64,000 bases of DNA from NCBI GenBank assembly GCA_029882395.1, contig JAOUKT010000007.1, forward strand, positions 1-64,000, written 5' to 3'. A program made the translations under genes and the position numbers. The DNA is from Gammaproteobacteria bacterium. Its GTDB lineage: Bacteria > Pseudomonadota > Gammaproteobacteria > SZUA-229. Positions 1 to 43,822 of the stretch are shown here, piece after piece (the stretch's first letter is position 1; each line of letters begins with the position of its first letter). The notes below the pieces were generated by a model. That model saw only the letters and a list, made by a program, of their open reading frames with translations, did not search any database and was not told where the DNA came from.

Positions 1-33
1 TAAGTATATTATTGCAAGACGTATGCCAAATTT

Positions 34-2475: not shown

Positions 2476-4041
2476 TTAACGGATATTAATGATGGATTGC
2501 GTTACGGTATTAGCCGTTTCAATCGCCTTGGAGTTGGCCTGGAAATTACGCTGCGCTGTAATCAGTTTCACCAGCTGAGCCGTCAGATCGACATTCGACT
2601 GTTCCAGTGCGCCGTTATAAATCAGGCCATAAGTACCGGTGCCAGCCTGACCCGTGTTCGCCAGGCCCGAGTCGTTATTTTCAGTCCAGGTCGTATTGCC
2701 ATTCTGGGTCAGTCCCTGCGGGTTATCAAAAGCCGCTATAGCAATCTGGCCTAATGCCTGCTGCCGGCCATTACTGAAGTTGGCTCTGACCACGCCATCG
2801 CTGCCGATATCCAGTCCCACTAACTGTCCGGTTGAAAAACCATCCTGCTCGACATTTGCAACACCAAAGGGACCAAAAACCTGTTGCGTCGAGGCCGAAT
2901 TATTAATACCGAAATCAAACGTCAGATCCAGCGGCGCCGAGCCGTTGATTAAGGATAAATCATAGGAATCGTAGACAATTTCACCATTGGTGGTTGAATT
3001 GGTTAAATCCAGATTACCGTTCTGGTCAAAATCGAGAATTTCCGTACCGGCTGTTGATGTCAGCAATACACCATCGAGTGTGGTTCTTACTTCCCAGGTA
3101 TTATTGATATCATCTGTCTGAATAAAATAGGAGCGCGCGATATGTGTGCTGCCCTGAGAATCATAGACGGTAACAGACGTTGAATAGTTATACTGATTAG
3201 GGTCAGTTGGATCAAACTCCTGCACCGATAAAGCCACCGCATTCGCCACATCCGCAATCGCCTGAGTAACAGCAAGCGGATCCGGTGCTGGTGTCAGTGC
3301 ATATAATGCCGCGGTGTTATTGGCTGCATTTGTAATCGCTGCAATCACATCGGTATCCGCACCAGGGCCGATGGCTGCAATCGCATCGGCTGCGGCCGAT
3401 GCTGCGGCCGCAGCAGGATCATCAAGCGGGAAAGGATCAGCGGTTAACGCCGCGGCCGCGCCGGATGCCACGGCAAAGGGCTCATCGGTGATATAAAAAT
3501 TGGGTAAAATTGTATTAATGTCTGACGGCAAATTCATATTCAAATTCACCGTGGTAGTTGGCTGCGGTGTGCTCACGCCATCCGGCACCTGAAGACTAAC
3601 GGTACTGTTGATACTGGTAGTCAGCGGATTGCCATCGGTATCCACCGGGTATGCCTGCAATGAATCACCATTACTGTTGACAATATAACCATCGGCGTTG
3701 AGCTGAAAAGCACCTGCCCGTGTAAACAGTGAAGCGGAAGCCTGACCGGCTGTAATTTCAGGTGAAAGGATAAAAAAGCCTTCGCCACTAATCGCCAGAT
3801 CGAGTGAGTTCTGAGTGAATTCAAGATTACCCTGAGCAAACTGCTGAGTCACAGACGAGAGCAAAACACCTGAGCCAATCGCGTTATCGGCATTTCCCAA
3901 TGTCGAGGTTGCAAAAATATCCACAAACTCGGCACGCGAACCCTTAAAACCAGTTGTTCCTACGTTAGCAATGTTATTACTTGTCACTGATAACTCAGAA
4001 GAAGCGGCATTTAGACCACTTAACGAAATATTAAACGACAT
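2476..4041 (-). CDS. flgE: Flagellar hook protein FlgE with Ala-rich insertion
   Basis: FlgE polymerises into the hook, the universal joint between rod and filament. At 521 aa it is about 100 residues longer than the enterobacterial protein. The N-terminal axial helix (SLSGLNAASSELSVTSNNIA), DLAISGEGFF, the SVTVYDSQGSTH domain and the C-terminal YNGALEQSNVDLTAQLVKLI motif are all present. The extra length is an alanine-rich segment at about residues 187-273, with runs such as DPAAAAASAAADAIAAIGPG, placed between the D1 and D2-like parts. That segment is encoded by GC-rich DNA holding two GCGGCCGC octamers, unlike the surrounding sequence. The reading frame is intact on both sides, so this is a real part of the protein. 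Confidence 0.96.
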   Translation of the reverse strand: MSFNISLSGLNAASSELSVTSNNIANVGTTGFKGSRAEFVDIFATSTLGNADNAIGSGVLLSSVTQQFAQGNLEFTQNSLDLAISGEGFFILSPEITAGQASASLFTRAGAFQLNADGYIVNSNGDSLQAYPVDTDGNPLTTSINSTVSLQVPDGVSTPQPTTTVNLNMNLPSDINTILPNFYITDEPFAVASGAAAALTADPFPLDDPAAAAASAAADAIAAIGPGADTDVIAAITNAANNTAALYALTPAPDPLAVTQAIADVANAVALSVQEFDPTDPNQYNYSTSVTVYDSQGSTHIARSYFIQTDDINNTWEVRTTLDGVLLTSTAGTEILDFDQNGNLDLTNSTTNGEIVYDSYDLSLINGSAPLDLTFDFGINNSASTQQVFGPFGVANVEQDGFSTGQLVGLDIGSDGVVRANFSNGRQQALGQIAIAAFDNPQGLTQNGNTTWTENNDSGLANTGQAGTGTYGLIYNGALEQSNVDLTAQLVKLITAQRNFQANSKAIETANTVTQSIINIR

Positions 4042-4058
4042 AATCTATCTCCAGAATC

Positions 4059-4730
4059 TTAAAGAATTTTACTGATGCTGCTAAAAGGCACTTGTCCCAG
4101 ACCCTGAACATCAACCTGCAGTTCTTCGCCGACATTTCCTAATGCCAGACTATTAACATTGCCATATAACAATGTCGGTGCAATTGTTGTTTGACCGTTT
4201 TGAATCACTTCTACTTCCATCCTGTACTGCCCCATTGGGGCCTGATCACCGTTAAAGAGCGAGCCATCCCAGGCAAAAACAGTGGTACCTGAAAGCTGTT
4301 CTCCTAAATCCATCCTGCTAACTAAAGAGCCGGCGCTGTTATAAACATTGACAGCCACGTTTGATGCAGGGGAATCAAGCTCAACACCACCCTGAACAAG
4401 ACCGGATGAATTTAACTGCCCGACATTTGTTTCAACCAGCACTCCCCGACCAATCATATTGGCTGCTTGTAGCGCCTGATTCGATTGCATATCTTCCGAG
4501 AAGGAGACAAAAGAGTTTTTCAATTCCTCGATACCGTTCACGGTTCCAAACTGCGCGATCTGTGAAAGAAACTCACCGTTATCCATCGGTTCAAAAGGAT
4601 CCTGGTTTTGCATCTGCGCGGTCATTAATTTCAGAAATGAATCCTGACCCAGCTGTGAATCACCAGTGCTAGCTGTAGTGGCTGCTGATGTGTTGCTTTG
4701 AAGCTGTGTAATACTGCCTATTGCACTCAT
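4059..4730 (-). CDS. flgD: Flagellar hook cap/assembly protein FlgD
   Basis: FlgD caps the growing hook and permits FlgE assembly. The N-terminal region shows the family motif (LGQDSFLKLMTAQMQNQDP, then NGEFLSQIAQFGTVNGI), and the C-terminal half has the FlgD Ig/tudor-type domain with the FAWDG and GQYRMEVE motifs. I chose the ATG at 4728-4730 (MSAIGS, 223 aa). It lies 4 bases after the flgC stop with GAGGA about 7 bases upstream. The longer frame would need a TTG at 4746-4748 inside flgC. flgE follows after 17 bases. Confidence 0.95.
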   Translation of the reverse strand: MSAIGSITQLQSNTSAATTASTGDSQLGQDSFLKLMTAQMQNQDPFEPMDNGEFLSQIAQFGTVNGIEELKNSFVSFSEDMQSNQALQAANMIGRGVLVETNVGQLNSSGLVQGGVELDSPASNVAVNVYNSAGSLVSRMDLGEQLSGTTVFAWDGSLFNGDQAPMGQYRMEVEVIQNGQTTIAPTLLYGNVNSLALGNVGEELQVDVQGLGQVPFSSISKIL

Positions 4731-4734
4731 ATTT

Positions 4735-5148
4735 TTATCCTCGACCAAGTTGCAGGGTGCGTAGTAAAAGTTCTTTTGATGTATTCATCATTTCTGTATT
4801 ATTTTGATAACTTCTTGATGCTGACATCATGTTGGTCATTTCTTCTACCGCATTCACATTTGAACCAAAGACATAACCTTGTTCATTAGCCAAAGGATGG
4901 TTTGGCATATAATTCATCGGTACCGTGGCATCACTTTCAACAATCTGTGTAACCCTTACTTTAGAACCGTCTTCATTATTCAAATCATTTAACACGGTTT
5001 GAAATACCGGCTGTCGAGACCGATAGGCACCCTCTTCTGTTGTTGAATAGGTTTGTGCATTGGCCAGATTACTGGAAACCGTATTGAGTCTGAGCATTTG
5101 AGCACTCATGCCACTTCCGGCTATATCAAAAACTTTAAACAATGACAT
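4735..5148 (-). CDS. flgC: Flagellar proximal rod protein FlgC
   Basis: FlgC is a proximal rod subunit. The 137-aa length is typical. The N-terminus (FDIAGSGMSAQMLRLNTVSS) carries the SGMSAQ rod signature and the C-terminus has GSNVNAVEEMTNMMSASRSY, both hallmarks of FlgC. It begins 11 bases after flgB ends and its stop codon lies 4 bases before the flgD start. Confidence 0.97.
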   Translation of the reverse strand: MSLFKVFDIAGSGMSAQMLRLNTVSSNLANAQTYSTTEEGAYRSRQPVFQTVLNDLNNEDGSKVRVTQIVESDATVPMNYMPNHPLANEQGYVFGSNVNAVEEMTNMMSASRSYQNNTEMMNTSKELLLRTLQLGRG

Positions 5149-5574: not shown

Positions 5575-5592
5575 AAGCAAAGGCTATGCCAA
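5575..5592 (-). promoter_or_regulatory. Sigma-54 promoter of flgB operon
   Basis: Read on the minus strand the sequence is TTGGCATAGCCTTTGCTT. The invariant GG and GC are separated by exactly 10 bases, as in the consensus TGGCAC-N5-TTGCW. Transcription should start near 5566, about 17 bases ahead of the flgB ATG. In Pseudomonas and Vibrio this operon is driven by RpoN with a FleR/FlrC-type activator. Confidence 0.75.
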
Positions 5593-15145: not shown

Positions 15146-16552
15146 TCAGTCTTTAAGTTTTAGGACATGGAATAAACGTCCGCCATCGCGCATTATCAAT
15201 ACAGGAATGGATTTGTTAACAGGTAACTGTTTCATTATTTTTTTGTAATCAGAAACAGAGGATATTTTTTTATGATTTAACATTAAAATCACATCATTCT
15301 TTCTCATGCCAGTTATGGCCGCTGCACTTTTAGGCTCAACAGCTGTAATAACCACGCCTTGTTTGCTTTCGGCTGCGGAGACCAGCAATCCAATACGATC
15401 AAACTTTTTATCTGGTGCTGACGGTGCAATAACGGATTCTTTTTCGTCTTTCAGCGCGGCAATAACCACATACAGTACCTTGATCTTTTTATCACGCAGC
15501 ACTTCAACTTTTACTTTTGTACCAACAGCGACCCGGCCTACCAGAGCCGGCAGGTGATTGGAGTCGGTAACCGCTTTGCCGTTAAATTTTAATATAACAT
15601 CACCGGCTTTGATGCCGAATTTTTGCGCCGGTGAATCTTCAATTACCTGAGAAACAAGCGCGCCCTGAGGTCTGTCCAGGCCAAATGACTCGGCCAGCTC
15701 TCTTGATATTTCCTGTATGTATACACCCAGCCAGCCTCGTGTTACATGCCCTGATTTTTTAATTTGAGAAACCACGTCCATTGCCACTTCAATGGGAATG
15801 GAAAACGACAGCCCCATAAAGCCACCCGTGTTGGTATATATCTGTGAATTTACCCCCACCACTTCGCCATTCATATTAAATAATGGCCCGCCAGAATTAC
15901 CCGGGTTAATCGCGACATCTGTCTGGATAAACGGCACATAAACATCGCGGGGCAAACTGCGTCCTTTAGCACTGACAATACCTGCCGTCACTGAATGATC
16001 AAAACCATAAGGTGAACCGATAGCCAGCACCCATTCACCCACTTTCAATTCGCTGGCATCACCAATTTTTACCGGGTTTAAATTTTTAGCATCAATTTTA
16101 AGCACGGCCACATCAGTCATGCGGTCTGAGCCGATCAACTTTGCCACCAGACTGCGTTTGTCATGCAGGCGAACAATAATTTCATCCGCTCCTTTAATGA
16201 CATGATGATTGGTCAATATATAACCATCATTGGAGATGATAAAACCTGAACCCAGAGACTGCGCTTTTTCTTCAGGCATGCCATTGCCCTGGTGGTCTTT
16301 ATCAAATTGCTCGCCAAAAAAATGTTTGAACAAATCACCAAAGGGGTTATCTTTTGGAATATCCATGCCTTCAAAGGGTGATGCGGCTGTCTTTCTGGAG
16401 GTACTGATATTCACTACCGATGGTCCGTTATCAGCAGCCAGCTGAGTGAAGTCTGGCAAAGAAGACGCCAACAAACCCTTAGAAATCAGTAATGTAGCCA
16501 TAAAGACTAGCAGTGACACGCTTTTCTGATAAAGCGATTTATAACTTGGCAT
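15146..16552 (-). CDS. mucD: Periplasmic serine protease MucD/DegP family
   Basis: A Do/HtrA-type periplasmic protease and chaperone that degrades misfolded envelope proteins and restrains the sigma-E response. I start at 16552 (468 aa), where AGGAA precedes the ATG; the frame could extend 11 codons upstream without such a site. A signal peptide covers about the first 30 residues. The triad is His117 (LTNHHV), Asp147 (RMTDVAVL) and Ser220 (NPGNSGGPLF), followed by two PDZ domains (GWLGVYIQEIS and a second ending near the C-terminus). As in Pseudomonas it follows the rseA-rseB-rseC genes. A 223-base gap upstream leaves room for its own promoter. Confidence 0.95.
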   Translation of the reverse strand: MPSYKSLYQKSVSLLVFMATLLISKGLLASSLPDFTQLAADNGPSVVNISTSRKTAASPFEGMDIPKDNPFGDLFKHFFGEQFDKDHQGNGMPEEKAQSLGSGFIISNDGYILTNHHVIKGADEIIVRLHDKRSLVAKLIGSDRMTDVAVLKIDAKNLNPVKIGDASELKVGEWVLAIGSPYGFDHSVTAGIVSAKGRSLPRDVYVPFIQTDVAINPGNSGGPLFNMNGEVVGVNSQIYTNTGGFMGLSFSIPIEVAMDVVSQIKKSGHVTRGWLGVYIQEISRELAESFGLDRPQGALVSQVIEDSPAQKFGIKAGDVILKFNGKAVTDSNHLPALVGRVAVGTKVKVEVLRDKKIKVLYVVIAALKDEKESVIAPSAPDKKFDRIGLLVSAAESKQGVVITAVEPKSAAAITGMRKNDVILMLNHKKISSVSDYKKIMKQLPVNKSIPVLIMRDGGRLFHVLKLKD

Positions 16553-16622
16553 ATAGTTTGTTCCTGAACATTTAGACATAGACATATAAAACAGCAGAAT
16601 ATTATCACGGACAGCAATAATT

Positions 16623-35875: not shown

Positions 35876-37387
35876 ATGATTAACAATATGAAAAAGGACT
35901 TTCAAGTAACGATACCTGCACCCCCGATTCAAATCGGGGCAGGTATATTTTTACTTTTCCTTGCGTTTTACTGGAAGAGCATTATTGAACTGGTCGATCT
36001 CTGGAACAGCAGCTCAACCTATTCCCATGGCTATTTAATCCCGCTGGTCACTCTTTATTTAATCATCAGTAAAAATAAATTGTTAATCAACACGCCGCTC
36101 AAACCCTCTCCTTTATTGTTAATACCCTTAGTTTTTACTTTATTGCTCTGGCTTTTTGCAACAATTACAGAAACCAAAACGATCGAATTAAGCCTGTTAC
36201 CGCTTGTTTTTATTTTCACCTATACCAGCATCATAGGTTATAAGTCTTCTCTTTTAATAGCCACGGCATTGCTGTATTTGCTGCTGGCGGTACCCATTTG
36301 GAACATCCTGATACCGACACTGCAAGACATGGCTGTGTTTTTCAACCAACACGCGCTTTCTTTAGCCGGCTTTCCTACCTATATCGAAAACACCAGTGTC
36401 ACTATACCCGCGGGCACATTTGAAATTGAAGATGGTTGCAGTGGCATAAGATACCTGGTGGTGTCGCTGGCTTTGGGTAGTTTATTTTCTTTAATGAATT
36501 ACAAAAGCCTAAAGCCTGCGCTGATTCTTTTAGTTTTATCGTTTGTCTTCCCCGTCATACTGAACTGGATTCGAATATACATTATTATTCTGATTGGCCA
36601 CTTCAGTGAAATGCAAAGCCCACTGGTGACAAAACATCATACCTTTGGCTGGGTATTATACGGCATCAGTTTAATACCTTTTTATTTTATAGCGCATAAA
36701 TTATCCGCTTTTGAAACAAATACAACAGAAACCGAAGCAAACATCAGCCCTGAAGCCGCAAAGCAATATAGCACTTTATATTATGCGTTTTACATCACAC
36801 TGCCACTGGCATTTATGATTAGCCCGACATTTTTCTCCAGCTATTTAGCCACAAAAAACATTAAAACTGTCGGCCACATTACTGCTCCTTCTGCCGTATC
36901 CCCCTGGCTGGGCCCCATTCATTACAATAAATGGGCGCCAGGATATAAGAATGCCGGTATAAGTAGCAATACGATATACATCGGCAGTGACTCACACCCC
37001 GAAATCGCCTTGCATCTTTATTATTATGGCAAAGAGTCTGCAGACAGCGAACTTATCAATGAGAACAATATAATAACAAAAGACGAATACATTAGTTCAG
37101 AGAAAGTTTTTCTATTCAAAGACCATAAAATCATTGAAAATATAGTCACGATTCCGGGCATACAAAGCCGCCTTGTTTGGTACTGGTACTATGTCAACAA
37201 TAAAAGCACCACCAGCCCCATTGAAAGTAAAATTTTACATGCACAAGAACTCATAACAGGAAAGGCAACATCTTCATTAATTGCTGTTAGCACAGAATGT
37301 TTCAACCAGTGCAACAGAGAGCGGAGCGAACTGAAACTTTTTTTAGAAAAACATCACAGCAATATTACCGACACATTATCGATGTAA
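35876..37387 (+). CDS. xrtA: Exosortase A fused to EpsI domain (XrtA)
   Basis: XrtA is the membrane transpeptidase-like enzyme thought to recognise C-terminal PEP-CTERM sorting signals on exported proteins. The 503-aa protein has about eight membrane helices in residues 20-280. The catalytic set is Cys188 (IEDGCSGIRYL), Arg233 (LNWIRIYII) and a His at 255-256 (KHHTFGWVLYG). A further membrane helix at about 305-322 leads to a periplasmic EpsI domain (SPWLGPIHYNKWAPGYKNA, ALHLYYYG), the standard C-terminal fusion in XrtA. The first ATG lies six bases after acs; a second, at codon 5, is an alternative, and neither has a clear ribosome-binding site. It starts the xrtA-prsT-prsK-prsR module. Confidence 0.95.
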   Translation: MINNMKKDFQVTIPAPPIQIGAGIFLLFLAFYWKSIIELVDLWNSSSTYSHGYLIPLVTLYLIISKNKLLINTPLKPSPLLLIPLVFTLLLWLFATITETKTIELSLLPLVFIFTYTSIIGYKSSLLIATALLYLLLAVPIWNILIPTLQDMAVFFNQHALSLAGFPTYIENTSVTIPAGTFEIEDGCSGIRYLVVSLALGSLFSLMNYKSLKPALILLVLSFVFPVILNWIRIYIIILIGHFSEMQSPLVTKHHTFGWVLYGISLIPFYFIAHKLSAFETNTTETEANISPEAAKQYSTLYYAFYITLPLAFMISPTFFSSYLATKNIKTVGHITAPSAVSPWLGPIHYNKWAPGYKNAGISSNTIYIGSDSHPEIALHLYYYGKESADSELINENNIITKDEYISSEKVFLFKDHKIIENIVTIPGIQSRLVWYWYYVNNKSTTSPIESKILHAQELITGKATSSLIAVSTECFNQCNRERSELKLFLEKHHSNITDTLSM

Positions 37388-37400
37388 AACAGGCATTAAA

Positions 37401-40136
37401 ATGAACATAAAAAACACCTTAAGTATAAAATTATTATTTCTCATAGTTTTATTGCTGTCTGCTTGTGATGAGAACAAACCGCAAGTAAGCGCTAACGACC
37501 ACCTTGACCTCGCTCGACTGTATTTCAACAAGGGCGCTTTCAAAGCAAGCGTGATCGAGGCCAGAAATGCCTTACAGATTGAACCTGATAACATTGAAAC
37601 ACTGACCACGATGACAAAGACACTCATCAAACTCAATGACTATGCCTCTGCAAAAAAAACCATCTTACGTGCCATAAGTCTGGACAAAGGCAACGAAGAC
37701 CTGAAGACAATGCTTGCAAAAAACCAACTACTTGAGAACGATATCGCATCGGCCAGAAAAACAATCGATGCGATTAATACCAGCTCCATACAAAACATTG
37801 CAAACTATAACAATACGAAAGCCGATATACTGTTTGCCTTAAAAGACTTCACTGAAGCAAAAAAATGGTATAACAAATCACTAAAACTCGACAAAAAAAA
37901 TGTTATTTCATTGATCGGCGCCGCAAAATCATCAACGCTTCTGAAACAAGCTGAAGAAGCTGACAAGCTGACACAACAAGCCGTTACATATAACCCCAAT
38001 AATATAGACGCCTTAATCTGGCAAGCCCAGGTCTATATCTATAAAAAACAATACCGTGATGCTGAAGCCTCGCTTTCAAAAGCAATGGTTGAGCTAGAAC
38101 AATACGACACGTTAACCAGTGACAAATACATTGCTATAGAGCTGCTTTCAAAGGTCCTGCTGGCCCAGGGGAAGATAGAAGAATCCTTCCGTTTCAGCAA
38201 CTACCTTAGCCAATCCAGGCCCGGTAAACTGCAGGCCGCCTACAAAAAAGCATTCAGCCTTATATCTAACAAAGACAACATTCTGGAAGCCGAGAAAGCA
38301 TTTGAAGATGTTTTACGGCAGGCCCCCAGTCACACACCCAGTGGCGTTATGCTTGGTATCATCAACTTTAACAAAGGCGATTATTCACAGGCCGATGAAT
38401 ATTTATCCAAATTTGCCAATGAACACAACAGCGCTTTACGCAGTAAAAAGCTGTTAATTTTAACAAAGATCAAACTTAACAACGCGGACGCCGCTATACA
38501 GATTGCATCTGAAAGCTTAAAAACTCATGGCAATGACGCCGACTTACATGCGCTCTCAGGTTATGCATATTTCATAAACAAAAACCTGAAACAGAGCATC
38601 ATAGCATTAAACACCGCAATCGGGCTGTCTGATAACAATGCGATTTACTATTCAAATATTTCTAGCGTCTACCTTAAAGATAAGGATATCAAAAACGCGC
38701 AAAAGTACGCCAAAATAGCATTGAAGCTCAAGCCTGACTCTGTGCAGGCAAAACTTGTACTGATAGAAACGTACCTGGCCAATAACCAAATTAAACAAGC
38801 AAAAACGATGGCTACCAACTGGATCAAAAAAACTCCAGGCAACGTGTTAGCTTTAAACACTTCAGCTTCTATCTCACTTAAAAGTAACAATCACTCGGAC
38901 GCAAAAAAACTTTTTCTAAAAGCCCTGTCAATCGATCCGCTTAACCTTAACGCCAATACAGCTCTGGTACAGTTTGACATCAACGAGAACAATACCGACA
39001 AGGCCTACGAAAGACTTTATCTGGTACTTAATCAGCACCCTGAACATAATGCGTCATTATCCATGTTGTTTGAACTTGCTAAAAAAACCAACTCTTTCCA
39101 CAAGATGGAAAAAATTCTCAGCCTGGTCATCACAAAAAACCCTACAACGATCAACACTCGCTTAGTTTTAGCCCAGTATTATCTGCTGACAAAATCAGCA
39201 GATAAAACGTTACAGATTTTTGACCAAATCACTAAACTAGATCCGAGGAATAGCAAAGCTTACATCTTAAAAGCCAAAGCATTGCATTTACAAAACAATA
39301 AACAGCAGGCTATTGACACTTATCTTTTGCTGGCTTCAATTCTTCCTGATAATGCGATCGGCTTCACTGAGCTCGGTAAATATTACCTGCAAAACAATAA
39401 TTCTGGGCTGGCGACTGAGCATGCTAAAAAGGCCTTATTGATTAATAACACTTACCTTGATGCCCACATTTTACTGGTTAAATCGGCTATCCAGAACAGC
39501 AACAAGCCTCTGGCTATGCAATCCATTACTTTTGTAAAAGATCAACTGCCCGATTCGCCGCTGGCAGATATAATGGAGACAGAGCTACACCTTAAACTCA
39601 ATGACACAGAATCGGCATTAAAAGCTCTCGATAGAGCCTGGAAAATCAAAAAGAGCATACAACTCGCCGAGAAATACAAAACTATATTCTTGATTAATAA
39701 GCAGGACAAACTTGCGTTTAGAGCATGGCATGAATTATCCAAAGAAAATCCATCAAACCTTAAAGTCCAGGTTGCTTATGCTGCCAGCCTGCACCAGTCT
39801 GAGCAATACAATTTAGCCAAACAGGTACTTGAAGCTCAGCTCAGGCTTTCTCCTGACAATGCGGTGTTGCTCAACAACATGGCAGAGATATATCTTCAAA
39901 CAAATGACCAGCGGGCGCTTGAGACTGCAAAAAGAGCACATGATCTAGCTCCTCACAGCCCAGCTGTTAAAGACACTCTCGGCTGGATATATCTCCAGCA
40001 ACACAAAGACACGACAAAGGCAATTCCATTGCTACAGCAGGCTTATAATGACAGCTCAAGTCAGGACATTAAACAACACCTCATTATTGCCCTGACACAA
40101 GCGGGAAGAACTAAAGAAGCCGACAGCTTAAAATAG
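37401..40136 (+). CDS. prsT: PEP-CTERM system TPR lipoprotein PrsT
   Basis: A 911-aa lipoprotein made almost entirely of tetratricopeptide repeats, matching the PrsT family that accompanies exosortase A. The lipobox is LLSAC (Cys22). TPR units of 34 residues recur from about residue 35 to the end, for example HLDLARLYFNKGAFKASVIE and DTLGWIYLQQHKDTTKAIPL. Function in the family is inferred to be scaffolding for exopolysaccharide export or PEP-CTERM protein processing. It lies 13 bases after xrtA. A+T-rich codon use (many Asn/Lys AAT/AAA) sets this gene somewhat apart from the ribosomal block. Confidence 0.93.
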   Translation: MNIKNTLSIKLLFLIVLLLSACDENKPQVSANDHLDLARLYFNKGAFKASVIEARNALQIEPDNIETLTTMTKTLIKLNDYASAKKTILRAISLDKGNEDLKTMLAKNQLLENDIASARKTIDAINTSSIQNIANYNNTKADILFALKDFTEAKKWYNKSLKLDKKNVISLIGAAKSSTLLKQAEEADKLTQQAVTYNPNNIDALIWQAQVYIYKKQYRDAEASLSKAMVELEQYDTLTSDKYIAIELLSKVLLAQGKIEESFRFSNYLSQSRPGKLQAAYKKAFSLISNKDNILEAEKAFEDVLRQAPSHTPSGVMLGIINFNKGDYSQADEYLSKFANEHNSALRSKKLLILTKIKLNNADAAIQIASESLKTHGNDADLHALSGYAYFINKNLKQSIIALNTAIGLSDNNAIYYSNISSVYLKDKDIKNAQKYAKIALKLKPDSVQAKLVLIETYLANNQIKQAKTMATNWIKKTPGNVLALNTSASISLKSNNHSDAKKLFLKALSIDPLNLNANTALVQFDINENNTDKAYERLYLVLNQHPEHNASLSMLFELAKKTNSFHKMEKILSLVITKNPTTINTRLVLAQYYLLTKSADKTLQIFDQITKLDPRNSKAYILKAKALHLQNNKQQAIDTYLLLASILPDNAIGFTELGKYYLQNNNSGLATEHAKKALLINNTYLDAHILLVKSAIQNSNKPLAMQSITFVKDQLPDSPLADIMETELHLKLNDTESALKALDRAWKIKKSIQLAEKYKTIFLINKQDKLAFRAWHELSKENPSNLKVQVAYAASLHQSEQYNLAKQVLEAQLRLSPDNAVLLNNMAEIYLQTNDQRALETAKRAHDLAPHSPAVKDTLGWIYLQQHKDTTKAIPLLQQAYNDSSSQDIKQHLIIALTQAGRTKEADSLK

Positions 40137-40182
40137 CAGGGCGAATATAATGATTCAACAACGCCAGCCAACGGCATTAAAA

Positions 40183-40226
40183 CTGACATTTTGTCAGCTA
40201 ATTTTACACCTGACAGGATACGTCAG
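40183..40226. promoter_or_regulatory. Paired CTGACA dyads upstream of prsK
   Basis: CTGACA-TTT-TGTCAG (40183-40197) is a perfect dyad. A second copy, CTGAC-N7-GTCAG (40210-40226), follows 27 bases later. Such spaced dyads are typical of sites for NtrC-family regulators, the class to which PrsR belongs. I see no convincing -24/-12 promoter downstream in the gap, so the regulated promoter is uncertain. The first dyad could also be an mRNA hairpin after prsT. Confidence 0.4.
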
Positions 40227-40286
40227 CGCTATCAGGAATAGATAAAAATGCATCATTCCTCCACAAATAACTGTAAAGCTATAAAT

Positions 40287-40320
40287 TAGCCAAATACTGC
40301 CGTTATGGCCTATTTTTTTT
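40287..40320 (+). terminator. Possible terminator of xrtA-prsT
   Basis: TAGCCA (40287-40292) can pair with TGGCCTA (40306-40312) with one bulged base, followed by eight Ts (40313-40320). The stem is short and the loop long, so efficiency is doubtful. Confidence 0.35.
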
Positions 40321-40360
40321 GTTACAATACTGCTGTTAATATAAATAAATTGATCTTCAC

Positions 40361-42433
40361 ATGGACTATAGCGTCAGTTTAATCAGTTACTATTCTGCGG
40401 CATTTCTCTACTTTGCGCTTCTCATACGCTCTCTTCCAAATTTAAAAACCGGCATTTCAAACAAGCTCATAGCGTTTTCTGCCTTCATTACCTGTATCTG
40501 GTTTTTAATTCTTGCCACACAGCTGCAACTAGACTTATTCGATGTCGCGGTTTATCAGTCACTCGAAATTATAAAATATGCGGCATGGATAGCTGTTCTA
40601 CTCTCGGTACTCTACACGGCCAGCCACCAGAAACTGATTCGAAACAAAATACTGCTTTCACTGACAATTACAGCATTCACAATCAATGCAGTTTTGTTAT
40701 CTGTGACCATGACACGACCTTTATTAACAATAAATCAATTCAGCTTTATCTATGGTGCGAAATTTTATTTAATCTGCTTAACAGTTCTTTCTATTTTAGG
40801 TCTGGCCCTGGTTGAGCAGGTCATGCGCAATACGCATAAAGATCACCTCTGGAATATCAAGTTCCTGTGTCTGGCTATTGGCGGCATGTTTGCTTATGAT
40901 TTTTTCATGTTCAGTGATGCTTTATTATTAAATCACATAGAAGAGTCTCTGCTCACTGCCCGTGGCTTTATTCAGATTTTTCTCGTACCGTTACTTTTTA
41001 TTACCATTTCAAGAAACCCGGTTTGGCGTTTGAAACTGGCTATTTCTCGCCGGGTTGTATTCCACACAGGCACCTTAGCCATCTCCGGTGTTTATCTTAT
41101 TTTAATGGCGACAGCAGGCTACTACATCAAAGCCACTGGCGGTGAATGGGGTAATTTATTACAGACTATTTTCTTTATTGCTGCTATTTTGGCTTTTTTT
41201 ATTCTGATTATGTCGCGACAGATGCGCGCCAAACTGGTCGTATATATAAGCCGACATTTCTTCCGTTACCACTATGACTACAGACATGAATGGGTTTCTA
41301 TGACTAAGGCCCTGTTCATTCAGAATCAGGATGAAAATTTAGCTCACCGTGCACTCACACAAATCAGTTTATTAGTTAACAGTAGCGGTGGCGGCATATG
41401 GATAAGAAATGAAGACAACATCTATGTTTATACTGATGACTTAAATGCTAACTGGGATTACTTGCAGCCTAATATCGATGAACAGGACTTCATCATCTAT
41501 ATGAAAGATAAAAACTGGATTATTGATATAGATGAATATAAAGAAGATCAGAAAAATTACCCGGATCTTACACTGCCCAATACCATCCTCTCATTACCCA
41601 ATGCCTGGCTAATTATTCCTTTAAACATACAGACAACGCTTGTTGGTTTTATTGTCTTGCAACATTCACATGCAAGCTTCGAACTCAACTGGGAAGATTA
41701 TGATATTCTGAAGATTTCCGGCCACCAGGCGGCCAGCGCATTAGCGCAGATGCTCGACAGCGAAGCCCTTGCAAAATCAAGACAGTTTGATGCTTACAAC
41801 CAGATGTCCGCTTTTGTGATTCACGACATCAAAACCGTGGTATCACAACTTTCCCTAATGGTAAATAATGCAGAGCAACACCGAACAAACCCGGCTTTTA
41901 TCGATGACATGATAAAAACCACTGAACACAGCGTCTACAAAATGCAGGGCTTACTTAAGCAACTAAAACGCGAAACGCAGCTAGCCGAGCAGTCTAAGAT
42001 AAACCTCTCTCAACTGCTTGCTGATGTCGTCTACCAGCATCACAACAACAAACCGGTGCCTCAGCTCACCGGGCATCAAAGCGATATCCATATTCTTGCC
42101 TCCTATGATCACATTCATTCTGCAATCACACACATAATTAAAAACGCTCAAGAAGCGACATCTGATGACGGATATATTAAGATATCCCTGTCAACGATAG
42201 AGCATACAGCGATAATAAAAATAAGTGACAATGGAATAGGTATGGATACTGAATTTATAAAAAACAATCTTTTCAAACCATTTAGCAGCACCAAAGGATT
42301 ATCAGGCATGGGAATCGGCGTCTATCAGTGCCGCCAATATATTCGCGCCGCAAACGGTGACATAAGTGTTGACAGCAAATTAAACAAAGGCACGGCATTT
42401 ACCATCACATTACCTATATACACACAGGAATAA
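40361..42433 (+). CDS. prsK: PEP-CTERM system sensor histidine kinase PrsK
   Basis: The 690-aa protein matches PrsK, the kinase paired with PrsR in exosortase A loci. About eight membrane helices occupy residues 5-290. A GAF-like domain spans about 310-465 (WLIIPLNIQTTLVGFIVLQH). The kinase core has the phosphoacceptor His488 in SAFVIHDIKTVVSQL, the N box ITHIIKNAQEAT, DNGIGMD and GMGIGVYQC. The signal sensed is unknown. The 224-base gap before it suggests a promoter separate from xrtA-prsT. prsR follows three bases after its stop. Confidence 0.93.
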   Translation: MDYSVSLISYYSAAFLYFALLIRSLPNLKTGISNKLIAFSAFITCIWFLILATQLQLDLFDVAVYQSLEIIKYAAWIAVLLSVLYTASHQKLIRNKILLSLTITAFTINAVLLSVTMTRPLLTINQFSFIYGAKFYLICLTVLSILGLALVEQVMRNTHKDHLWNIKFLCLAIGGMFAYDFFMFSDALLLNHIEESLLTARGFIQIFLVPLLFITISRNPVWRLKLAISRRVVFHTGTLAISGVYLILMATAGYYIKATGGEWGNLLQTIFFIAAILAFFILIMSRQMRAKLVVYISRHFFRYHYDYRHEWVSMTKALFIQNQDENLAHRALTQISLLVNSSGGGIWIRNEDNIYVYTDDLNANWDYLQPNIDEQDFIIYMKDKNWIIDIDEYKEDQKNYPDLTLPNTILSLPNAWLIIPLNIQTTLVGFIVLQHSHASFELNWEDYDILKISGHQAASALAQMLDSEALAKSRQFDAYNQMSAFVIHDIKTVVSQLSLMVNNAEQHRTNPAFIDDMIKTTEHSVYKMQGLLKQLKRETQLAEQSKINLSQLLADVVYQHHNNKPVPQLTGHQSDIHILASYDHIHSAITHIIKNAQEATSDDGYIKISLSTIEHTAIIKISDNGIGMDTEFIKNNLFKPFSSTKGLSGMGIGVYQCRQYIRAANGDISVDSKLNKGTAFTITLPIYTQE

Positions 42434-42436
42434 ACG

Positions 42437-43822
42437 GTGAAAGAAAACAAACGATCGCTCTTAGTTATTGAAGATGACCCGGGTCTGCAAAGTCAGATGA
42501 AATGGTGTTTTGACAAGGACATTGAAATCATTATAGCTGATGACAATAAATCAGCACTCACTGCGCTCAGGAGGTTTGAGCCGGCCGTTGTTACGCTTGA
42601 CCTTGGTCTGCCACCTGATCCCGGCGGATCAAGTGAGGGCTTCAAATTACTTGAAGAAATCATAAAACTATCACCGAATACTAAAGTCATCATCATTACA
42701 GGGCGTGAGGAAAAAGAAAATGCCGTCAAGGCAATCGGCATGGGTGCTTACGATTTTTATCAAAAACCCGTTGAAGCAGAAACATTAAGCTTTGTTGTAG
42801 AACGCGCATTTAAACTAGCAGCACTTGAGCAAAAAACCCGCGAATTCGAGAAAAACCAGGCCCATAATAACAATTACGGCATCATCACATCTAGTCCGGA
42901 AATGCTTCATATCATTCAAATGATTGAAAAAGTCGCACCATCTGACATTACAACATTAATACTAGGTAAAACCGGCACGGGTAAAGAATTAATAGCCAAA
43001 GCCTTACACAGCGCAAGCAATCGCTCAGATGCACCCTTCTCTGCAATAAACTGTGCAGCCATCCCCGAAAACCTGCTGGAAAGTGAACTCTTTGGCCATG
43101 AGAAAGGAGCATTTACCGGTGCTCATACCCAAAAGAAAGGAAAAATTGAAATAACTGATAGTGGTACATTATTTCTTGACGAGATTGGTGATATGCCGCC
43201 TCCGTTACAGGCAAAGCTGCTGCGCTTTCTTCAGGAGAGGAGCATCGAGCGAGTCGGCGGCACTCAGGAAATCCCGGTAAACGTCAGAGTAGTTTGTGCC
43301 ACCCATCAGGATTTACGTAAATTAATCAGTGAAGGCGATTTTAGAGAAGATTTATTCTACCGACTCAGTGAAATTATTATTGACGTACCTTCGCTGCAAG
43401 AGCGACAGGGTGACACGGTCATCATTGCCAACGCCTTGCTCGAATCAATCGCAAATGATCAGGGAACAACTAAAAAACGTTTTAATGATGATGCTTTAAA
43501 AGCCATTGAGCAGCACCCATGGCCAGGCAATGTCAGGGAGTTGGTCAATAAAATCAAACGCGCGGTGATCATGGCAAATGGGCAATATATAACCGCAGAA
43601 GACCTCGATCTTGATACAGATAACAATCAGGATTCGATGCCGTTTAATTTACGTGAAGTTCGTGCAAATGCCGAAAGGCTTGCGATCTTACGAGCGCTCA
43701 GCCATTGTCACGGCAAAATCGCCCAGTCATCCAGATTACTGGGTGTAACACGCCCTACCCTGTATACATTACTTGAGAAATATGACATCCCTACCAGACA
43801 AAAAGAAAGCCATGAGCTCTAG
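42437..43822 (+). CDS. prsR: PEP-CTERM response regulator PrsR (sigma-54 activator)
   Basis: A 461-aa NtrC-type activator. The receiver domain holds the phosphoacceptor Asp55 (VVTLDLGLPPDPGG). The AAA+ domain has Walker A GKTGTGKE (177-184), the sigma-54-contacting GAFTGA loop (224-229) and Walker B LFLDEIGDM. A Fis-type helix-turn-helix ends the protein (GKIAQSSRLLGVTRPTLYTL). With PrsK it should activate RpoN promoters of PEP-CTERM and exopolysaccharide genes. The start is GTG with AGGAA six bases upstream, immediately after prsK. Confidence 0.95.
   Translation: MKENKRSLLVIEDDPGLQSQMKWCFDKDIEIIIADDNKSALTALRRFEPAVVTLDLGLPPDPGGSSEGFKLLEEIIKLSPNTKVIIITGREEKENAVKAIGMGAYDFYQKPVEAETLSFVVERAFKLAALEQKTREFEKNQAHNNNYGIITSSPEMLHIIQMIEKVAPSDITTLILGKTGTGKELIAKALHSASNRSDAPFSAINCAAIPENLLESELFGHEKGAFTGAHTQKKGKIEITDSGTLFLDEIGDMPPPLQAKLLRFLQERSIERVGGTQEIPVNVRVVCATHQDLRKLISEGDFREDLFYRLSEIIIDVPSLQERQGDTVIIANALLESIANDQGTTKKRFNDDALKAIEQHPWPGNVRELVNKIKRAVIMANGQYITAEDLDLDTDNNQDSMPFNLREVRANAERLAILRALSHCHGKIAQSSRLLGVTRPTLYTLLEKYDIPTRQKESHEL

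Follow-up and report, generated by a model that had tools for sequence, protein, structure and literature searches.

The 224-bp gap between prsT and prsK (positions 40137–40360) of the window, a stretch of 64,000 nucleotides analysed here as a whole, is probably an emptied cargo slot, in which only the distal box for the response regulator PrsR, at 40192–40208, is left as an orphan. The window comprises positions 1–64000 of one of the 160 contigs that make up a 3.29-Mb draft genome. The products of prsT, prsK, prsR and xrtA each score above the cut-off of their NCBIfam family, those of the first three being equivalogs. Besides the predicted box, the gap holds two CTGAC dyads, which an earlier note on this DNA had put forward as a possible PrsR site.

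Table 1. Features of the prsT–prsK gap and neighbouring genes (positions in the window)
Feature	Position	Strand	Basis and remarks
xrtA, exosortase A	35876–37387	+	TIGR03109, 229.7 bits, cut-off 208; precedes prsT
prsT, TPR lipoprotein	37401–40136	+	TIGR02917, 457.8 bits, cut-off 312.2
Dyad 1, CTGACATTTTGTCAG, CTGACA-N3-TGTCAG	40183–40197	.	Sequence match; sole terminator-like match in 40100–40420
Possible single 44-nt RNA hairpin from both dyads	40183–40226	+	MFE -13.9 kcal/mol, z -3.9
Predicted PrsR box, TGTCAGCTAATTTTACA, distal-type, no promoter after it	40192–40208	+	PWM from 60 PEP-CTERM upstreams, 16.2 bits
Dyad 2, CTGACAGGATACGTCAG, CTGAC-N7-GTCAG	40210–40226	.	Sequence match
Degraded terminator remnant	40299–40320	+	Aligns with CCGCCATCATGGCGG-T9 of L137, which follows the PEP-CTERM gene
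Possible prsK extended -10, TGTTACAAT	40320–40328	+	Read directly from the sequence; TGTTATAAT in L138 and L139
prsK, histidine kinase	40361–42433	+	TIGR02916, 691.4 bits, cut-off 300
prsR, NtrC-type response regulator	42437–43822	+	TIGR02915, 670.9 bits, cut-off 502.6

The box motif was derived de novo from PEP-CTERM genes. The 54 genomes of the window's family gave 69 PEP-CTERM places in 28 genomes and, after one place near the edge of its contig, two without a start codon and six with short or N-holding upstreams were set aside, a family set of 60 upstreams. Expectation-maximisation from random seeds revealed that the best refined solutions are registers of two motifs only, the sigma-54 motif TTGGCAtg.aa.TTGC (log-likelihood 343.7 at width 17) and the box motif gTGTCA.aAtttTTTACA (264.6 at width 17 and, in its best register, 351.2 at width 21). 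At the same width of 17, the best solutions from three dinucleotide-shuffled sets reached log-likelihoods of 70–72. Above 9 bits, the box is present in 53 of the 60 upstreams, the sigma-54 site in 52, and a box upstream of a sigma-54 site in 50; with at most one mismatch the box occurs in 38 (shuffle mean 0.58). A class set from other families was held out of motif training and scored at a threshold of 10 bits; it started from 45 places (E up to 3e-6), reduced to 41 by leaving out the place from the window's own genome, which the family set already contains, and three short upstreams. Here the box was found in 33 upstreams, the sigma-54 site in 29 and the box upstream of it in 27, against means of 1.3, 1.9 and 0.03 over 30 shuffles. 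A wrong guess at the PrsR operator is in this way replaced by a de novo motif that was confirmed on genes of other families kept out of training, and its position weights and spacing rules can be used to call PEP-CTERM regulons. Two or more boxes above 11 bits precede 23 of the 60 family genes, the last two being 107–164 bp apart in 19 of these 23. The left half TGTCAG is present in other boxes too, for example at L162, L181 and L183 of the class set. TGTAAA-N5-TTTACA was rejected as the main consensus, with 268 forward matches at up to two mismatches versus 203 for the reversed control; A at position 4 of the box matrix has a weight of 0.22, and TGTAAA-type sites are thus a minority form.

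TGTCA-N6-TTTACA agrees with the motif 1 that Haft et al. 2006 (PMC1569441) reported, as far as the text of that paper describes it, with the 5' half compared only via the motif derived here. According to that text, motif 1 is 17 nt long, ends in TTTACA, was assigned to PrsR as a prediction, and lies in the intergenic DNA preceding 99 of 167 PEP-CTERM genes from proteobacteria. A sigma-54 motif 2 follows on average 62.8 nt downstream, the most 3' copy of motif 1 being followed by motif 2 after 32–92 nt. The window box agrees with motif 1 in being 17 nt long, with TTTACA at its 3' end, intergenic and a predicted PrsR site, and the average distance at targets is recovered in the present data, where 50 genes have a median spacer of 64. 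Unlike motif 1 as described, however, the window site has neither motif 2 nor a PEP-CTERM gene after it. The statement in the earlier note that the PrsR site is poorly defined therefore holds for experiments, whereas a prediction has existed since Haft et al. 2006 (PMC1569441). Regarding the protein, DVUA0057 of Desulfovibrio vulgaris resembles PrsR as a response regulator predicted for PEP-CTERM genes, and DAP-chip enriched its five predicted PEP-CTERM targets (PMC3333781); according to a legend in that paper, binding motifs had not been validated for the regulators concerned. It belongs, however, to a distant bacterium and is likened by targets, not by site sequences. Similarly, pepA of Aquincola tertiaricarbonis is described as RpoN1-dependent with a predicted enhancer upstream, and adjoins prsT as the PEP-CTERM genes described below do, but it is intact, and its place is on the upstream side of prsT rather than in the prsT–prsK interval (PMC9850573). 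Together, these two cases provide published support for PrsR and such targets.

Scoring the window with the position weight matrix, whose training set does not contain 40192–40208, ranked this site best of all positions on both strands; the next match, at 4337, has 14.2 bits. The left half of the box is the right arm (TGTCAG) of dyad 1, and its right half falls between the dyads. TGTCAGCTAATTTTACA thus appears to be a predicted PrsR site of the motif-1 kind, known as a prediction since 2006, in non-coding DNA of a genome with PrsR, PrsK and PrsT. Accordingly, a predicted PrsR site does lie within 40183–40226, where the earlier note had placed one, but the CTGACA dyad is not that site. The remaining parts of a PrsR target are absent from the gap. 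Between 40137 and 40345 no plus-strand sigma-54 site exceeds 0.2 bits and none exceeds 7 bits on either strand, no PEP-CTERM gene lies between 40137 and 40361, the genome's TIGR02595 matches all being on other contigs, and the gap has no box above 7 bits beyond 40192–40208 itself and the same site read backwards (7.2 bits). Given that no sigma-54 promoter stands between the box and prsK, sigma-54 autoregulation of prsKR by this box is unsupported.

PrsR has predicted targets elsewhere in this genome, as two of its three PEP-CTERM genes carry a box and a sigma-54 site at 61–63 bp. The exact pattern TGTCA-N6-TTTACA occurs nine times in the genome, eight times outside ORFs of at least 100 aa, and only one copy is followed by a sigma-54 site within 200 nt. 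A box alone is thus no proof of function, and it is the positional match described next that carries the argument. A genome search with TTACA-N55..85-TGGYAY-N6-TGC gave 10 places, an incomplete regulon list since this strict pattern misses the genome's two PEP-CTERM promoters; at three of the 10 the sigma-54 score exceeds 14, and no box above 9 bits precedes any of these three.

A PrsK search of genome contigs retrieved three congener loci, L137 (MAG 8_1_Jan_SF_Bin65), L138 (CSMAG_304) and L139 (JAOULC010000028.1), of which L137 and L139 come from one MAG. At L137 and L138, ORF order and lengths match prsT, prsK, prsR and the 695-aa ORF behind them in the window, with one extra ORF before prsK that carries a PEP-CTERM signal at both loci; PrsK and PrsR of both genomes score above their cut-offs. 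Counted from the prsT stop, the L137 slot has boxes at +54 and +189 and a sigma-54 site at +280, and the L138 slot has boxes at +56 and +200 and a sigma-54 site at +289, followed in each by the PEP-CTERM gene and a terminator. The window box lies at +56, compared with +54 in L137 and +56 in L138. Because the sigma-54 site of L137 runs into the start codon called first, the gene probably begins further downstream. The cargo proteins of L137 and L138 have only the 26-residue C-terminal signal in common. Toward prsK, the remnant aligned with the L137 terminator (Table 1) has lost its fold: window positions 40280–40330 fold no better than shuffles (z -0.04), against z -4.8 for the L137 stretch with the terminator. 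The slot middle, about 40207–40296, gave no alignment above shuffle level with any of the three congener slots, so the deletion points are not visible, and a multiple alignment of the slots is poor except at the prsK start and the terminator. The L139 slot holds no long ORF and no box or sigma-54 site above 7 bits, and retains prsK. The slot was thus seen with two different genes, without intact gene and box (L139), and with a box only (the window).

The L139 stretch between prsT and prsK (4004–5000) ends, just before prsK, in what resembles a PEP-CTERM tail spread over two adjacent frames. This stretch is possibly a decayed cargo gene, with tblastn support no better than chance: its best E is 0.006, and the window slot reaches the same value through a chance match on the reverse strand. 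MAG 8_1_Jan_SF_Bin65 carries two prsT-prsK-prsR copies (L137 and L139), each followed by the 695-aa ORF, and the two PrsK proteins are 84% and 78% identical to that of the window, which suggests that the bin contains two strains or species. In another congener, with a draft genome of 97% completeness, neither PrsK nor PrsR reaches its cut-off, yet there is a PEP-CTERM gene (G002:C5, L104) with a box and a sigma-54 site at 62 bp. Over 126 residues, its product shares 74% identity with that of the PEP-CTERM gene at G000:C74; another activator or an assembly gap may account for this genome.

At intact targets, the distance between box and promoter appears to be phased. In 50 family and 27 class PEP-CTERM genes, the box-to-sigma-54 spacers cluster at about 51, 62, 73, 84, 94, 104 and 116 bp, a period of about 10.7 bp, around a median of 64 in the family genes. 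For the 22 family spacers that fall outside the main peak and are shorter than 150 bp, the mean cosine with respect to that peak was 0.81 at a best period of 10.75 bp, and none of 20000 jittered sets was as good; the family-set promoters are partly related and not independent. With period and centre fixed from the family set, the class spacers below 130 bp (n=15) gave a mean cosine of 0.86 (0 of 200000 as good). These tests omit the class spacers of 134, 178, 191 and 206 bp and the family spacers of 162 and 199 bp. The rule for choosing the box was set before the phase was noticed: of the boxes upstream of the best sigma-54 site, the closest one was taken. The results suggest that PrsR has to bind on a particular side of the helix with respect to the sigma-54 promoter, and the phased distances support a contact of PrsR with the sigma-54 polymerase via a short loop. 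If the phasing holds, it opens a test of how this contact is made.

Two dyads upstream of prsK-prsR are indeed present as the earlier note described them, between prsT and prsK and 27 bp from start to start. CTGAC-N3..10-GTCAG has only these two matches in the 64 kb (mean expectation 0.24; two matches in 2 of 100 shuffles), and CTGACANNNTGTCAG with up to two mismatches has four matches versus 2.28 expected. Genome-wide, there are 48 matches to CTGAC-N3..10-GTCAG versus 22 for the reversed pattern, so a single dyad of this kind is common; two adjacent dyads with one common half-site are unusual. Their reading as PrsR operators that autoregulate prsKR, or as extra half-sites used by PrsR besides the box, draws on the fact that the pair is real and upstream of prsKR, and that its half TGTCA(G) is the left half of the box. 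Moreover, the 80 nt flanking the window box contain three half-sites, more than expected from the 7.7 per kb found at boxes, an excess that a pure relic would leave unexplained. We nevertheless consider this reading very improbable. The recurrence upstream of PEP-CTERM genes that the earlier note had proposed as a check was not found, as the exact CTGAC-N3..10-GTCAG dyad occurs in none of the 60 upstreams, and CTGACA-N3-TGTCAG does not rise above chance there (1 of 60 at up to two mismatches, mean of 60 shuffles 0.47; 8 of 60 at up to three, 6.3). At up to two mismatches it is also absent upstream of prsK at all 24 other loci, three of which have less than 600 nt of upstream sequence (35, 33 and 130 nt), and it was not found in the L137 and L138 slots. 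Likewise, the idea that extra half-sites gather around boxes in general was rejected, their density being 7.7 per kb there and 7.7 elsewhere, and no sigma-54 promoter precedes prsK. With neither enrichment at PEP-CTERM genes nor conservation at other prsK loci or in congeners, the CTGACA dyad was rejected as the PrsR site.

Because the dyads share one half-site, the arms of dyad 1 and dyad 2 can pair with each other. Folded alone, 40183–40226 forms one hairpin that was matched in stability by none of 200 shuffles; more flank weakens this signal, to z -2.26 for 71 nt (5 of 200 shuffles) and z -2.08 for 104 nt (7 of 200). The pair might thus be an RNA hairpin at the 3' end of prsT, a terminator or stabiliser, with the box a chance match within it. 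Dyad 1 as the only terminator-like site in its surroundings favors this reading, as do the perfect 14–15 bp hairpins of unrelated sequence behind prsT at L138:4037–4072 (z -7.8) and L139:4086–4121 (z -4.8 in one calculation and -10.8 in another), to which the dyad pair may be the counterpart in the window. As an intrinsic terminator, however, dyad 1 has a stem of only 6 bp (-6.1 kcal/mol) and a tail, CTAATTTTAC, that is a poor U-run. No hairpin was found behind prsT in L137, and in other genera one with z below -2.5 follows only 4 of the 14 prsT genes scored. A hairpin with a chance box also leaves unexplained that the best box in 64 kb stands at the offset of the L137 and L138 boxes, and we regard it as unlikely. 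NtrC-type proteins can also act through a sigma-70 promoter or as a repressor. The box might therefore still be in use, with bound PrsR controlling prsKR or prsT via a sigma-70 promoter, or repressing. This would account for a site kept at 16.2 bits though the gene is gone, and a possible extended -10 sits 112 bp downstream of the box. In contrast, L139 keeps prsK without a box, and a box with at most one mismatch stands upstream of prsK at only 5 of the 24 other loci, at least two of these five facing a divergent PEP-CTERM gene; autoregulation of prsK as a general feature was rejected on this count. Continued use is in our view improbable, somewhat more so than the hairpin and a little less so than the dyads as operators.

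The emptied slot enables us to propose a putative course of events. Judging from its family, phosphorylated PrsR would bind the boxes at intact targets and contact the sigma-54 polymerase by a short loop. Ahead of prsK, the ancestral slot would have contained two PrsR boxes and a sigma-54 promoter, followed by a PEP-CTERM gene with a terminator behind it. The window's lineage would have lost this gene, its promoter and the proximal box, and the terminator would have decayed, with the distal box remaining. Since both a terminator remnant and the distal box remain, a gain of the gene in the congeners is less likely than a loss in the window, and we infer the latter together with loss of function. 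PrsR phosphorylated by PrsK would still be expected at 40192–40208, but with no sigma-54 promoter in reach there would be nothing to activate. The dyads would then be neighbours of the box that may fold together into a hairpin where the prsT transcript ends. An assembly error in the MAG may also lie behind the missing gene. More tentatively, and with somewhat less than even confidence, we extend this to a cargo slot of the genus, in which exchange or loss affects the PEP-CTERM gene but spares the PrsR/sigma-54 control region before it, so that orphan enhancers are left, along with a fixed-helix-face rule for the proximal box that would be general for the regulon. Compared across loci, the slots suggest a way in which genes for surface proteins come and go beside their own regulator. 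A limited search of the literature found no account of the emptied slot or of helical phasing in the PrsR regulon; a precedent in print is possible.

Three strong sigma-54-like sites were seen elsewhere in the window, at 13–29 (minus strand, 19.9 bits), 5576–5592 (minus strand, 18.3 bits) and 16546–16562 (plus strand, 15.3 bits), and none of the window's top ten box matches lies near them. As for prsK, it probably has its own sigma-70-type promoter, with TGTTACAAT as the candidate read from the sequence; a sigma-70 scan of 40100–40420 listed nothing on the plus strand, this candidate included. At the terminator remnant just 5' of prsK, a 13-bp direct repeat, AATACTGCYGTTA, is present at 40293–40305 and 40326–40338, with 12 of 13 positions identical.
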